Assembly: GCF_903642205.1 (NCBI RefSeq)
Contig: NZ_CAHJWH010000011.1
Span: forward strand, 1 to 38,635
From: Caulobacter sp. S45
Lineage (GTDB): Bacteria; Pseudomonadota; Alphaproteobacteria; Caulobacterales; Caulobacteraceae
Direction of reading: 5' to 3'
Length of the DNA: 38,635 nucleotides
Shown: piece by piece, positions 27,138 through 33,332 of the stretch
Position numbering within the stretch: the stretch's first letter is position 1
How the letters are laid out: every line of letters starts with the position of its first letter
Notes under the pieces: generated by a model
The model's database searches: none
Told to the model about the DNA's origin: nothing
Seen by the model: the letters and a program-made list of their open reading frames with translations, nothing else
Translations under genes and position numbers: made by a program

Positions 27138-27212
27138 TGGCTCCGCGGGCAGGATTCGAACCTGCGACCAATCGATTAACAGTCGATTGCTCTACCGCTG
27201 AGCTACCGCGGA
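27138..27212 (-). tRNA. tRNA-Asn (anticodon GTT)
   Basis: 75 bases with an encoded CCA end. The acceptor stem is TCCGCGG/CCGCGGA, the D arm AGCTCAGCGGTAGAGC, and the anticodon loop CTGTTAA has anticodon GTT (plus-strand 27178-27180). The T arm is CAGGTTCGAATCCTG. It lies 111 bases upstream of tRNA-Gly on the same strand. Confidence 0.96.
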
Positions 27213-27287: not shown

Positions 27288-28982
27288 TCAAGAGACCAGG
27301 GCGGAGCCGCGGCAGCGCAGCCCGTCAGCCCAAACATCCGCCTCACCTACCCGGACTCCGCTCAGCGCCTCAACCTGCCCCACGAGCGCATCCAGCGAAG
27401 GCGCGGCCTGCACCAGCAGGGCCTGCAGCTCTGGAGACAGGATGGCGGGCGTGAGGCCGGGCGAGAGCACGGGCGTCTGGACCTGCACGCTGACACCGCC
27501 GAGCAGTGAAGCGACGCTGGCCTGGGCGATGTCGTTGGTGAAGGCGCTCTTCATCGTGTCTGCAGCTATGTCGGCCTGGCTGAAGTGGACCGTCTGCCAA
27601 CTTGTCTGGCCGCCGCCGATGTCGACCCGGCTGTAGGCGGTTGCGCGCACCAGGACCGCATTGAGCAGTGTGGCGGTCTGCAGCGCGACGGGTGTGGTGA
27701 AGTTGCGCAGGGTGGAGGGGTCGATCTGGGCCAGGGCGAAGGTCCCGAGGCTCGGAGAGGCGGAGAGGTCCAGCCCCTGGTCCGCCGCGCTTGCGGGGCA
27801 CTGCATGGCCTGCAGCTTCGCCTGGGCGGACGCCGCTTCCACGTAGATCGGCAGGGTCACCAGCGCGCCGCCTGAGGCGGTGGAGAGCAGGCCCGGCGCC
27901 AGGCTTGCCTGGATGTAGAGCCGCATCTGCGAGGTTCGCACCACGATCTTGCCAGCGTCGGTGACGGTCAGCCACGGGGATTGGCTGGGCCGCTGACCGA
28001 TCGCCAGCCAAAGCGTCAGCTGAGCCACCCCTGGGACCAGTCCGTTCAACGACACGCTGAGCTCGCGCGATCCGCTGGCGGCGGTCAGCAATGCGGTCGA
28101 GAGGTTCATGGCGCCGACGGTCAGGCTCGCGCCGCTACCATCGGTGGTCTGGTCCTGGCTGCCGTACGGACCCAGATCGAGGATCGTTGACAGGGGCGTG
28201 GGCGGCAGGGCGGCGGAGGCGATGGCCAGGGCCTGTGCGGCGGCGGCGGTGGGCTGGCCGCTGGCCGTGAGGGTGTCGGCCAAGGCGGCGAGGGCGACGG
28301 AAGGGGCGATCGCGGTGGTAAGGACCTGGCTGAAGCTCAGCGCCTGCAGGCCCGCACGAGCCTGCAGCGCTGGCAGGTAGCGGAGCAGGTCCACGTTCGC
28401 CGAACCCAGCGCCTGGGAGTTCATCACCGAGAGCTGCACCTGGCTGCCGGTGAGCGCCGACAGCAGGGCGTTGGCCACGCCGCCGTTCAGCGAGGTCAAC
28501 CCCGACCCGATGGAGAAGGCGGCGAACCTGGCGCGGGCGGCGATGGCGGTGCGGGTGAGGGTAAGGCTGGGACGGCCGATCAGCAGGGCGGCGAAGTAGA
28601 GCGGCACGGGCGCCTGGAGCGTCACCTGCACGGCGTTGGGGCTTGAGGTGGAGGCGGTGAAACGCTGGGCGGCGGGGACCGAGGCGTCGGCCGCGTAGAG
28701 CCCCGTGACCGTCTGGGCTGTGACGCCGCCGGGCCAGGGGTTCAGGGCGGCGGTGGCCTGGGCGGTCGCGGCGGGGGACTGGGTTGAAGCGGGATCCAGG
28801 CTCTGGACAGACGCCATGGCCGCCAGATCGGCCACGCCCTGGAGCTGGCGGGTTTTCATGTAGATGTTCCCGAGGTCCACTCCGACCGCAGCGCTGCCGA
28901 TCAGGGCCAGCATGCAGAGCGCGGTCAGCATCGCTGCGACGCCGCTGCGGTCTGCGGCGAAGGCCTGAAGAAGCGGGCGCAC
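27288..28982 (-). CDS. TadG-like pilus/envelope protein
   Basis: 564 residues. The N-terminus FAADRSGVAAMLTALCMLALIGSAAVGVDLGNIYMKTRQLQGVADLAAMA is the TadG-like (Flp pilus assembly) signature: short cytoplasmic tail, one membrane segment at about 15-37, and a conserved D-rich segment. The remaining 500 residues would be exported and are rich in Ala, Leu, Thr, Ser and Gln, with few charges. I see no von Willebrand MIDAS motif. The start is GTG, one base after the TadE stop. The rest of the tad/cpa pilus locus is not in the window, so its link to pili is inferred. Confidence 0.8.
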   Translation of the reverse strand: MRPLLQAFAADRSGVAAMLTALCMLALIGSAAVGVDLGNIYMKTRQLQGVADLAAMASVQSLDPASTQSPAATAQATAALNPWPGGVTAQTVTGLYAADASVPAAQRFTASTSSPNAVQVTLQAPVPLYFAALLIGRPSLTLTRTAIAARARFAAFSIGSGLTSLNGGVANALLSALTGSQVQLSVMNSQALGSANVDLLRYLPALQARAGLQALSFSQVLTTAIAPSVALAALADTLTASGQPTAAAAQALAIASAALPPTPLSTILDLGPYGSQDQTTDGSGASLTVGAMNLSTALLTAASGSRELSVSLNGLVPGVAQLTLWLAIGQRPSQSPWLTVTDAGKIVVRTSQMRLYIQASLAPGLLSTASGGALVTLPIYVEAASAQAKLQAMQCPASAADQGLDLSASPSLGTFALAQIDPSTLRNFTTPVALQTATLLNAVLVRATAYSRVDIGGGQTSWQTVHFSQADIAADTMKSAFTNDIAQASVASLLGGVSVQVQTPVLSPGLTPAILSPELQALLVQAAPSLDALVGQVEALSGVRVGEADVWADGLRCRGSALVS

Positions 28983-28983
28983 C

Positions 28984-29526
28984 TCAGAACCCCCCGACCT
29001 GGACCGAAGCGCTGCGGACGATGGACGACGAGGGCATCGGGATGATGCCGTTCAGAGCCCAGAGCGGGCTGCCGGACGCGTCGTAGGCGATGTTGACCGT
29101 CATCACCTGCGACTGGTCGGCATAGCCGAGCTGGACCAGCTTGGGGCTCAGGAAGCCGTAGGTCGGCAGCTCGTTGGCAAGGCAGTTGGCGGCGAGCTGC
29201 TGTCGCTCACTGTCGGACAGGCCGCCCAGCGCGGCCCGCGCGGCGTCGTTGGCCAGCTGCTGTACCGAGTGAGCCATCAGGAAGTAGCCGCCATAGACCA
29301 TGATCCCGAGCAGCAGCATGATCAGGACCGGCCCGATGATCGCGAACTCCAAGGCCACCGCGCCGCTGGTGCAGAGCGGCGATCGCCCCGGCGGGTCCTG
29401 CAACCGAAAACGCCCTGACGCCGTGATCCGAGACGTGGTCGTGCCTTTGCGGACAGACGTCTCAGGCGCGGGCCGGACGGCCGTCGACGCACAGGTGCAG
29501 CGCGCTGAACATCCGACTCGAGCCAT
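28984..29526 (-). CDS. TadE-like pseudopilin
   Basis: The diagnostic part is SGAVALEFAIIGPVLIMLLLGIMVYGGYFLMAHSVQQLANDAARAA, a prepilin-like G/xxxxEF site running into one membrane helix, as in TadE/TadF. The remainder is a short exported domain ending SASVQVGGF. The start is unsure. ATG 29526 overlaps the preceding stop (TGATG) and adds about 55 residues of odd, charged leader. TTG 29403, with CAGGG upstream, would give a 14-residue leader and a 139-residue protein more like the family. TadE proteins are processed pseudopilins needed for Flp pilus biogenesis or secretion. Confidence 0.78.
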   Translation of the reverse strand: MARVGCSARCTCASTAVRPAPETSVRKGTTTSRITASGRFRLQDPPGRSPLCTSGAVALEFAIIGPVLIMLLLGIMVYGGYFLMAHSVQQLANDAARAALGGLSDSERQQLAANCLANELPTYGFLSPKLVQLGYADQSQVMTVNIAYDASGSPLWALNGIIPMPSSSIVRSASVQVGGF

Positions 29527-30266
29527 CACGCGGCGACCCGCATGGTGGCCGCAGACAGAGCCGGCAGGGCGATGCAGAGCGGCAGGTAAGCGGCCCGCCT
29601 GGGCTCCAGCACCAGCGAACCGCCCATGGCCTGGAGCAGGCGCTGCGGCGCGACCAGGTCCTGGCGGGCCGCGTCGCCGTGGTCCGCCAGCCTCGCCTCC
29701 GGCGTGCGGGACAGGATCAGGATGTGCGCCTCATGCCCGGTGAGCTCGACCGTGACCCGCACGTGGCCCGGCGCCTGCTCCATCGAGAGGGCGCGTAGGA
29801 TCAGGTGATAAACTACAGTGCGCAGGCGCCGGGGCTCCGCGCAGCAGACACCGTCGCGCGCCGGATGAACGTCGCGCAGCAGCGCCAGCTCGGCCTCTCG
29901 CGCGAGCGGTTCCAACCTTTGCAGAACGTCGCCGATGAGGGCCTGAACGGCGACAGGACCAAGGGCGAGGCCTGGGCCCGTGGCCAGGTCCCGGGTCCGA
30001 CGGTCGATCTCCAGGGTCGAAGCGGCGTAGGCGTTCAGGATCGGAGAGGCGACGAACGAAGGCGGGTGGGTCACCAGATCGACGGACGCCTGCCGGGCGC
30101 ACCGGACGTCGTTCGCAAGCCAGCCTTCTGCTCCCGGCCGGCTTTCCGCGGTGGAGGTCCTGCGACGCCTCAGAAGCCTCCCCAGATCGGCTCGGATCGA
30201 TGAGGCGAGCCCCTGGCCTATGTTCCTCGCGTGAGCATTTCCAGGCGGGATGGAGATGTCAGGCAC
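29526..30266 (-). CDS. Degenerate histidine-kinase/HATPase-like protein coupled to TadE
   Basis: 246 residues from GTG 30266, set by AGGGAG six bases upstream; the ATG at 30293 has no usable ribosome site. Residues 60-90 (VDLVTHPPSFVASPILNAYAAS) look like a decayed DHp helix with a possible phosphate-carrying H67. Residues 105-235 follow a histidine-kinase ATPase outline: DVLQRLEPLAREAELALL, then EPRRLRTVVYHLILRAL for the N-box, and LVAPQRLLQAMGGSLVLEPR for the end. The N-box asparagine is replaced and no DxGxG or GxGLGL is visible, so ATP binding is doubtful. It could be a phosphotransferase or a non-catalytic regulator. No membrane segment. It overlaps TadE by the TGATG junction. Confidence 0.7.
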   Translation of the reverse strand: MPDISIPPGNAHARNIGQGLASSIRADLGRLLRRRRTSTAESRPGAEGWLANDVRCARQASVDLVTHPPSFVASPILNAYAASTLEIDRRTRDLATGPGLALGPVAVQALIGDVLQRLEPLAREAELALLRDVHPARDGVCCAEPRRLRTVVYHLILRALSMEQAPGHVRVTVELTGHEAHILILSRTPEARLADHGDAARQDLVAPQRLLQAMGGSLVLEPRRAAYLPLCIALPALSAATMRVAA

Positions 30267-30461: not shown

Positions 30462-33332
30462 CTAGTGCGCCTCGTCCCAGTTAGCGGCAGCGCGGGCGTC
30501 TACGGTGAGGGGGACCGACAAGGCCACGGCAGGCTCCGCCGCCTGCGACATGACCCGTGAAGCGAGCGCGCAGAGATCCGCCGCCTCCTCTTTCCGCGCC
30601 TCGAACACGAGTTCATCGTGGACCTGCAGCAGCATCCGCGCGCTGAGCCCTTCCGCCTTCAAGGCCGAAGGCATGCGGATCATGGCTCTACGGATGATGT
30701 CGGCGGCGGCGCCCTGGATGGGGGCGTTGATGGCGGCGCGCTCGGAGAACTGGCGCATGCCCATGGCCTTGGAGCGGATGTCGGGGATGTTGATGCGCCG
30801 CCCGAACAGGGTGGTGACGTAGGCGTGCTCGCGCACAAAGGCGCGGGTCTTGTCCATGTAGTCGCGGATGCCGGGGAAGCGCTCGAAATAGGTGCGGATG
30901 TAGGCGCCGGCCTCGTCCTGGGGGATGCCGAGCTGGTTGGACAGGCCGAACGCCGAGATGCCGTAGACGATACCGAAGTTGATCGCCTTGGCCCGCCTTC
31001 GGACCATGGGGTCCATGCCCTCGATCGGCACGCCGAACATCTCTGAGGCGGTCATGGCGTGGATGTCCTGGCCCTTGCGGAAGGCCTCCTTCAGCTGCGG
31101 GATGTCGCCGATGTGGGCCAGCAGCCGCAGCTCGATCTGGGAGTAGTCGGCCGAGACGATGACGTGGCCGGGCTCGGCAATGAAGCAGGTGCGAAGCTTG
31201 CGACCCTCCTCGGTGCGGACCGGGATGTTCTGCAGGTTGGGGTCGGAGGAGGAGAGGCGCCCCGTCGTGGTGGAGGCCAGGGCGAAGCTGGTGTGCACCC
31301 GGCCGGTTTTCGGCGAGATGGCGGTGACAAGGGCGTCGGCGTAGGTGCCCTTCAGTTTCGAAATCTGGCGCCAGTCCAGGATGGCGCGGGGCAGGGCGTG
31401 GCCCTGGAGCGCGAGGTCCTCCAGAACCTTCACGTCGGTGGACCAGGCGCCTGTGCCGGTCTTCTTGGCGCCGGGCAGGCCCATCTCGCCGAACAGCACG
31501 TCGCCGATCTGCTTGGGGCTGCCGAGATTGAAGGGGTGGCCGGCGAGCTGGTGCGCGCGCCCTTCCGCCTCCACCATCTTGATCCCGAACTCGTGAGAGA
31601 GCTGGCGCAGGCGATCGGGGTCCACCTTGATCCCGGCGCACTCCATTGTGGCCAGCATCTGCGGCATGGGCCGCTCCAGCGTCTCGTAGACGGTGAGCAG
31701 GCGCTCTCTCTGAAGGCGGGGCTTGAGCGCGTGGTAGAGCCGCAGCGTCACGTCGGCGTCTTCGGCGGCGTAGGCGGTGGCGGGCTTCAGCTCCACCTCG
31801 GCGAAGCTGACCTGCTTCTTGCCCACCCCCGCCACCTGCTTGAACGGGATGGGCACATGACCGAGGTGGAGCTGGGACAGCTCATCCATGCCGTGGTTGT
31901 GGACGCCGGCGTCCAGCACGTAGGACATCAGCATGGTGTCCTCGATGGGCGCCACGCGCACGCCGTAGCGGCTCATCACCGCCATGTCGTACTTGGCGTT
32001 CTGGGCCACCTTGAGCACGGTGGGGTCTTCCATCAGCGGCTTCAGCCGCTCTATGGCCTCTTCCAGCCCAAGCTGGGTCCAGTGCTCGCGCTCGGCGAGG
32101 TCGAGCCCTGCGGCGGCGCAGTGGCCGAGCGGTATGTAGGCGGCCTCGCCCGGGGTGATCGCCAGGGATATGCCGCAGAGGCCGGCGTTGGAGCAGGACA
32201 GGGCGTCGGTTTCGGTGTCGAAGGCGATCAGGCCGGCTTCGAAGGCGCGCGCGATCCAGGCGTCCAGCGTCTCCAGGTCCTGGATGCAGACGTAGGTCTC
32301 CGGGTCGATCTTCACCGCCTCAGGCGGGGGGGCTGCGGGCGTGGGGCTGCGGGCGGGCAGGCCGGCCATCTCGCCGACGCGGAGCGCGAGGCTCTTGAAG
32401 GTCATCTGGTCGAGGAAGTCGGCCAGCACCTTGGGGTCCGGCGCGCGCACCACGAAGTCGGACACCGGATCGGGCACCGGCGCGTCGTCGGCGAGCGTGA
32501 CCAGCTGGCGGGAGACGCGCACCTGGTCGGCGAAGTTGATCAGGGTCTCGCGTCGCTTGGGCTGCTTGATCTCGTGCGCGCGCTCCAGCAGCGTGTCGAG
32601 GTCGCCGTATTCGGTCAGCAGCTGGGCGGCGGTCTTGATCCCGATGCCCGGGGCCCCGGGCACGTTGTCCACGCTGTCGCCGGCCAGCGCCTGGACCTCG
32701 ATGACCTTTTCGGGGGGCACGCCGAACTTCTCGATCACCTCGGCGCGGCAGATCTTCACCTGCTTGACGGGATCGAGCAGGCAGGTCTGCTCGTCCACCA
32801 GCTGCATCAGATCCTTGTCGGAGGAGACGATCACCACCTCTCCGCCGGCGCGGGAGACCTGGCGGGCGTAGGTGGCGATCACATCGTCGGCCTCGTAGCC
32901 CTCCAGCTCTATGGCCGGCACGCCAAAGGCGCGCGTCGCCTCGCGGATCAGGGGGAACTGGGGGACGAGATCGGCAGGCGGGGGAGGCCGGTGGGCCTTG
33001 TACTGGTCATACAGTTGCGAGCGGAAGGTCTTCTCGCTGGCGTCGAACACCACCGCCAGATGGGTGGGCGCGCCCAGGCCCTTGCCGTCGTCGCCGTCGC
33101 GGGTGTCGCAGATCAGCTTCCACAGCATGTTGCAGAACCCGGACACCGCCCCGACCGGCAGGCCGTCCGACTTGCGGGTCAGCGGCGGCAGGGCGTGGAA
33201 GGCCCGGAAGATGTAGCCTGAACCGTCCACCAGATAGAGCCGCATGGGCTTGGCGGGATCGACCTCGACCGGGGCCGTGATCTCCAGGTCGGCGTCAGCC
33301 TCGGACGGGTCCAGCAGGGTGATCTCGCTCAT
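30462..33332 (-). CDS. polA: DNA polymerase I
   Basis: 956 residues with all three activities. The 5'-3' exonuclease is at about 30-330 (LYLVDGSGYIFRAFHAL, then LEGYEADDVIAT, then GDSVDNVPG). The proofreading exonuclease at about 345-560 keeps its acidic residues (FDTETDAL, NAKYDMAVM, YAAEDADVTLRL). The polymerase domain has motif A SADYSQIELR, motif B RRRAKAINFGIVYGIS and motif C QVHDELVFE. It fills repair gaps and removes Okazaki primers. The 29 residues before MRLYLVDGSG are acidic and outside the family core, so translation might start at that internal ATG. It follows the glycosyltransferase gene by 32 bases. Confidence 0.97.
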   Translation of the reverse strand: MSEITLLDPSEADADLEITAPVEVDPAKPMRLYLVDGSGYIFRAFHALPPLTRKSDGLPVGAVSGFCNMLWKLICDTRDGDDGKGLGAPTHLAVVFDASEKTFRSQLYDQYKAHRPPPPADLVPQFPLIREATRAFGVPAIELEGYEADDVIATYARQVSRAGGEVVIVSSDKDLMQLVDEQTCLLDPVKQVKICRAEVIEKFGVPPEKVIEVQALAGDSVDNVPGAPGIGIKTAAQLLTEYGDLDTLLERAHEIKQPKRRETLINFADQVRVSRQLVTLADDAPVPDPVSDFVVRAPDPKVLADFLDQMTFKSLALRVGEMAGLPARSPTPAAPPPEAVKIDPETYVCIQDLETLDAWIARAFEAGLIAFDTETDALSCSNAGLCGISLAITPGEAAYIPLGHCAAAGLDLAEREHWTQLGLEEAIERLKPLMEDPTVLKVAQNAKYDMAVMSRYGVRVAPIEDTMLMSYVLDAGVHNHGMDELSQLHLGHVPIPFKQVAGVGKKQVSFAEVELKPATAYAAEDADVTLRLYHALKPRLQRERLLTVYETLERPMPQMLATMECAGIKVDPDRLRQLSHEFGIKMVEAEGRAHQLAGHPFNLGSPKQIGDVLFGEMGLPGAKKTGTGAWSTDVKVLEDLALQGHALPRAILDWRQISKLKGTYADALVTAISPKTGRVHTSFALASTTTGRLSSSDPNLQNIPVRTEEGRKLRTCFIAEPGHVIVSADYSQIELRLLAHIGDIPQLKEAFRKGQDIHAMTASEMFGVPIEGMDPMVRRRAKAINFGIVYGISAFGLSNQLGIPQDEAGAYIRTYFERFPGIRDYMDKTRAFVREHAYVTTLFGRRINIPDIRSKAMGMRQFSERAAINAPIQGAAADIIRRAMIRMPSALKAEGLSARMLLQVHDELVFEARKEEAADLCALASRVMSQAAEPAVALSVPLTVDARAAANWDEAH

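Follow-up and report, generated by a model that had tools for sequence, protein, structure and literature searches.

The gene that precedes tadE and tadG in the window (the whole 38,635-nucleotide stretch of Caulobacter sp. S45 DNA analysed here) encodes a degenerate histidine-kinase (HK) core, which we consider, on a slim balance of probability, to be a soluble, catalytically dead and lineage-specific remnant of a hybrid-type HK that has been kept for protein binding. Judged from its sequence, the remnant would comprise the end of the second DHp helix followed by a CA-type domain. The protein is predicted to be incapable of binding ATP normally, of autophosphorylating or of relaying phosphate, because the catalytic motifs, part of the ATP lid and the H-box histidine have been lost. 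It may persist through a CA/DHp surface that still binds a putative partner, either a response regulator or another HK; the protein itself would then act as a competitor or scaffold, by analogy with DivL, which does so by other means.

The preliminary description had proposed an open frame of this extent encoding a soluble protein, and on both points we agree: the frame runs on the minus strand from a GTG at 30266 to a stop at 29526, specifies 246 residues, and yields a soluble-looking product whose hydropathy over 19 residues peaks at 1.57. The GTG start is supported because a gggagag stretch lies 5′ of it and an ATG occupies the aligned position in the sole close homologue, found in a congener (G001); the reading frame is unbroken in both genomes. 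A phage or plasmid origin of the HK-core gene was rejected, as PHROGs gave a best E of 0.053, no plasmid match was obtained at 1e-3 and no match was found in viral contigs.

Descent from an HK is well supported by sequence comparison. Using hhalign, residues 100–240 of the two-member family matched 15 reference HK cores with 97.6% probability (E 4.1e-12, 27% profile identity), against 9.5% for the best of 50 column shuffles run as a control, which constitutes detectable homology to the CA/DHp portion of HKs. Blastp against a set of 15 proteins from the locus frames, with composition correction off and only matches in true HK frames counted, gave 35% identity to an HK of another family member (G228) across residues 104–184 (E 1.6e-10). 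This HK was also the best weak match in a family-wide search with the two-member profile, in which 52 of 390 genomes passed an E of 1e-4; two of these represent the HK-core gene itself (E 6e-148 and 6e-142, in the window genome and G001), and the remaining 50 matched weakly, at 3.5e-8 at best and chiefly to residues about 103–187. NCBIfam returned weak HK matches only (best E 0.0017, far below that family's cut-off), the best match in a PDB sequence profile search was an HK (E 0.041), and no Pfam family was found in the protein at E 10. AlphaFold2 models of the full-length protein and of the core were of low confidence (mean pLDDT 36.2 and 41.5, respectively), and a Foldseek search gave no match at E ≤ 0.001. 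Canonical hybrid-type HKs of Caulobacteraceae, such as the 605-codon frame of G228 (L095), share the same DHp-end and CA register over residues 100–240. The parts of that frame follow what we take to be a GacS-like order; compared with such enzymes, the HK-core protein lacks both sensor and receiver domains, as well as the catalytic residues described below.

To place the missing motifs, we used spacings in the 15 reference HK cores, which were picked for canonical motifs and are thus canonical by construction. In 13 of the 15, the phospho-His lies 117–120 residues ahead of the second N-box Asn, the DxG follows that Asn by 27–29 residues, and GxGLGL lies 28–30 residues past DxG; the two off-pattern cores are HKs of the window itself (His–Asn 110 and 116; Asn–DxG 45 and 32; DxG–GxGLGL 24 and none). 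By this spacing the H-box His is expected at about residue 41, where the region reads TSTAESRPGAEG and contains no His. H154 and R158, which stand in place of the two N-box Asn, are both kept in the homologue (P0005). SRT was placed at the DxG position because the hhalign register sets it there and the 28 residues from R158 to S186 fit the reference spacing. The GxGLGL position reads AARQDL. With the retained MGG at 214–216, the ATP lid comes out about 17 residues short of the lids of L096 and of the canonical hybrid HKs. Together, the profile match and this motif register uphold the earlier reading of a decayed, HK-like gene or pseudokinase with an HK outline and no N-box Asn, DxGxG or GxGLGL; the protein thus has none of the residues of an active HK at the H-box, N-box, DxGxG or GxGLGL. 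The same description had put forward H67 as a phosphosite, a reading that we discarded since the homologue has Gln there and the H-box His would be expected about 26 residues away. The His residues that are kept in the homologue (H134, H154, H168, H178, H181 and H196) all fall in the CA part.

Table 1. Features of the degenerate HK core locus, in coordinates of the window.
Feature	Position	Strand	Evidence or remark
Degenerate HK core gene	29526..30266	minus	ORF; 246 aa; GTG start
Constrained core, residues 75–246 (end of DHp-like helix and CA-like region)	29529..30044	minus	identity, dN/dS
H67, phosphosite proposed earlier	30066..30068	minus	Gln in homologue
N-box remnant HLILR	29793..29807	minus	alignments; H154 and R158 replace the two Asn
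SRT (S186–T188) at DxG position	29703..29711	minus	hhalign register
Shortened ATP-lid region, GxGLGL absent	29658..29702	minus	18-column gap (hhalign)
MGG (214–216) near end of CA-like region, retained	29619..29627	minus	hhalign alignment
tadE-like gene	28984..29526	minus	PF07811 E 5.7e-12; doubtful start; conservation begins near residue 51
tadG-like gene	27288..28982	minus	PF09977 E 2.8e-12, PF13400 4.3e-6
tRNA-Asn	27138..27212	minus	also directly past tadG in G001 and G002
polA	30462..33332	minus	upstream neighbour in window genome and G001

Subsequently, we compared the window gene with its G001 homologue by Nei–Gojobori counting, a simple method applied to a single sequence pair whose average may include time before decay: residues 75–246 share 74% amino acid identity at a dN/dS of 0.22, and residues 1–74 are drifting, with 31% identity and a dN/dS of 0.75. 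The HK-core gene evolves far faster than its neighbours in the same genome pair, namely tadG (0.15), the core of tadE (0.11–0.13) and the upstream gene (0.07), which from its sequence we take to be polA. Since the catalytic losses are common to both homologues, they are older than the split of the two genomes, and a core held at a dN/dS of 0.22 afterwards argues for a retained non-catalytic role and against the gene simply rotting. If the core is truly under selection without a phospho-His and an ATP site, it would be a natural case of HK surfaces remaining useful after catalysis, though for the wider field this is a minor, lineage-specific gene. We give a modest chance to the possibility that it is instead in terminal decay, a leftover HK fragment between polA and tadE with no present function. 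The drift of the N-terminal third, the loss of every catalytic motif and the restriction of the strong-scoring gene to just 2 of 390 family genomes would all be expected of such a fragment; the frames left intact in both genomes, and the conservation of residues 75–246 even though the lesions predate the genome split, would not.

A remnant kept for binding has partial parallels. In the excerpts of PMC4211667, DivL, a Caulobacter pseudo-histidine kinase, illustrates that an HK core devoid of kinase activity can still work as an interaction module, and in those of PMC9491836 signalling is still affected by a ChrS variant whose CA domain is broken. The same DivL excerpts, however, describe a PAS-domain protein in which every HK box is retained, Tyr replacing His, whereas the HK-core protein is stripped of these boxes and carries no sensor domain. 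DivL senses DivK, a role that would be conjectural for the HK-core protein. We cite DivL and ChrS as analogies, not as established functional relatives.

The gene order polA–HK-core gene–tadE–tadG–tRNA-Asn is common to the window genome and G001, the only two of the 390 family genomes in which the gene was found at a strong score. The third genus member (G002), in which a first-pass search at E 0.01 found no HK-core gene, keeps tadE–tadG–tRNA-Asn at a place away from polA. That first pass covered 60 genomes including the window's own, 18 of which matched: the own genome and G001 strongly, and 16 weakly (best E 1.2e-4). In an order-wide draw, 4 of 398 genomes matched at 1e-6, comprising the HK-core gene itself and three weak matches, with G001 not among the matches listed; the family and order searches scored 6–7 candidates per genome in the genomes listed, so that very weak relatives may escape them. 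TadG relatives occur in 104 of the 390 family genomes (E ≤ 1e-30), and the flanks of 32 TadG loci contain the HK-core gene at that of G001 and at none of the 31 others; within the family it thus does not regularly accompany tadE/tadG. The expectation that the three genes keep company therefore holds from one side only: the HK-core gene stands beside tadE/tadG in both genomes that have it, but many family genomes have the pair and lack the gene.

The small signalling/surface module proposed earlier, in which the HK-core protein would be a dedicated regulator of the neighbouring tadE–tadG, accordingly finds no support past adjacency, the trio being confined to the window genome and one congener, and we regard it as improbable. 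It draws on the gene order kept in G001, and sensory proteins do adjoin the pair elsewhere, a divergent PAS-domain gene facing tadE at 17 of 30 loci. However, the pair stands without the HK-core gene in the third congener and at the 31 other loci, two close relatives can owe a shared adjacency to inheritance, and a search of the locus for consensus promoters and terminators found none, so that no shared promoter was recognized. The tie to TadE/TadG is weak, consisting of the adjacency seen in these two closely related genomes. A position ahead of tadE–tadG may still give shared transcription, although a functional link is conjectural; adjacency alone is no ground for interpreting this neighbourhood as a signalling operon. 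Lower still we rate the idea that a stand-alone, stripped HK core would serve as a phosphorylation-independent adaptor linking a two-component pathway to the export or assembly of this TadE/TadG pair, located apart from the main pilus cluster. The window genome has another tad-type cluster on C16, where TadE is matched twice and a prepilin peptidase is encoded, all within 2.5 kb.

The junctions between these genes had been described as a TGATG overlap with tadE, followed by a tadG start one base past the tadE stop. The latter is correct (28982 versus 28984). The TGATG is present as letters in the window but is absent from the homologue, and the tadE start is itself doubtful: the best start in G001 is an ATG about 93 bases past the stop of the HK-core gene, where the window reads ACG. 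In the window TadE frame, the GC content of the first 50 codons is 0.78 at codon position 2 versus 0.72 at position 3, compared with 0.45 versus 0.92 in the rest, and identity to the homologue is 36% in the first 50 codons and 91% in the remainder. Because the first 50 codons combine a non-coding-like GC pattern with low identity, the true tadE start probably lies downstream of the TGATG, with a TTG as a possible candidate. As a sign of translational coupling the overlap was rejected, being unconserved and attached to a doubtful start.

Two further readings concern the catalytic capacity of the protein itself. An alternative register, in which D195-H196-G197 would form the DxG and nucleotide would still be bound, seems very unlikely to us: MAFFT with two window HKs sets D195-x-G197 on their DxG, but the homologue has Arg in place of G197, this DxG would follow R158 by 37 residues instead of 27–29, and hhalign sets S186 at the DxG position. 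That the protein is a ChpT-like histidine phosphotransferase, as had also been suggested, is scarcely credible: it resembles ChpT, as the excerpts of PMC9981736 describe it, in being soluble with a degenerate CA-like domain, but ChpT (PF10090) keeps its phospho-His (CHDF/CHDL in the seven copies compared), and the identity was rejected primarily because no His occupies the H-box position and H67 is unconserved, and also because PF10090 gives no match to the protein, the window genome has a separate PF10090 gene at C202 (E 1.6e-31), and hhalign against the seven ChpT sequences scored 0.4%, a weak test in which HK cores reached only 29.8% against the same sequences.

Several observations were made around the tadE–tadG pair. 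The window tadG, which we compared with the TadG/CpaL minor pilins, matches Tad and Tad_C; the excerpts of PMC12607857 describe a von Willebrand A domain in CpaL, and Pfam found none in the window TadG. The tRNA-Asn(GTT) lies directly past tadG in all three genus members (window:27138-27212, L024:7730-7804 and L057:6222-6296) and stays with tadG even where the tadE–tadG pair is away from polA. It is about 110 bases from tRNA-Gly in the window; in G001, one methyltransferase-like and one O-antigen-ligase-like gene (L024:7817-9974), named by eye, separate these two tRNAs. An Rfam element between the genes of the locus was rejected, the matches being limited to two tRNAs. The tadE neighbours in G002 are polysaccharide-type genes too, again named by eye from translations.

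At 17 of 30 TadG loci, the upstream, divergent gene that faces tadE falls into a single cluster (L130, L137, L142, L147, L152 and others). The member tested contains PAS domains (PF08448, E 1.3e-15), and its N-terminus weakly resembles Phd/YefM antitoxins (E 6.1e-5, which is below the cut-off); the gene matched in one of nine genomes and is absent from G000, G001 and G002. Past tadG and in the same direction lies a helical-looking ORF of about 100 residues, belonging to a cluster of 17 ORFs (for example L146:3141-3578, L137:3164-3475 and L129:3116-3457, with tadG on the plus strand), one tested member of which had no Pfam match. Another family (f2) includes two genomes in which tadE is preceded, on its own strand, by a gene for a single-receiver protein that looks to us like CpdR (L061:10713-11072 and L062:10570-11193); tRNA-Val lies between that gene and tadE. 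Furthermore, an intact hybrid HK with canonical motifs converges on tadG in G297 and G274 (L137:3411-4628 and L142:3415-4632, tadG on the plus strand), and is just 24–25% like the window HK-core gene.
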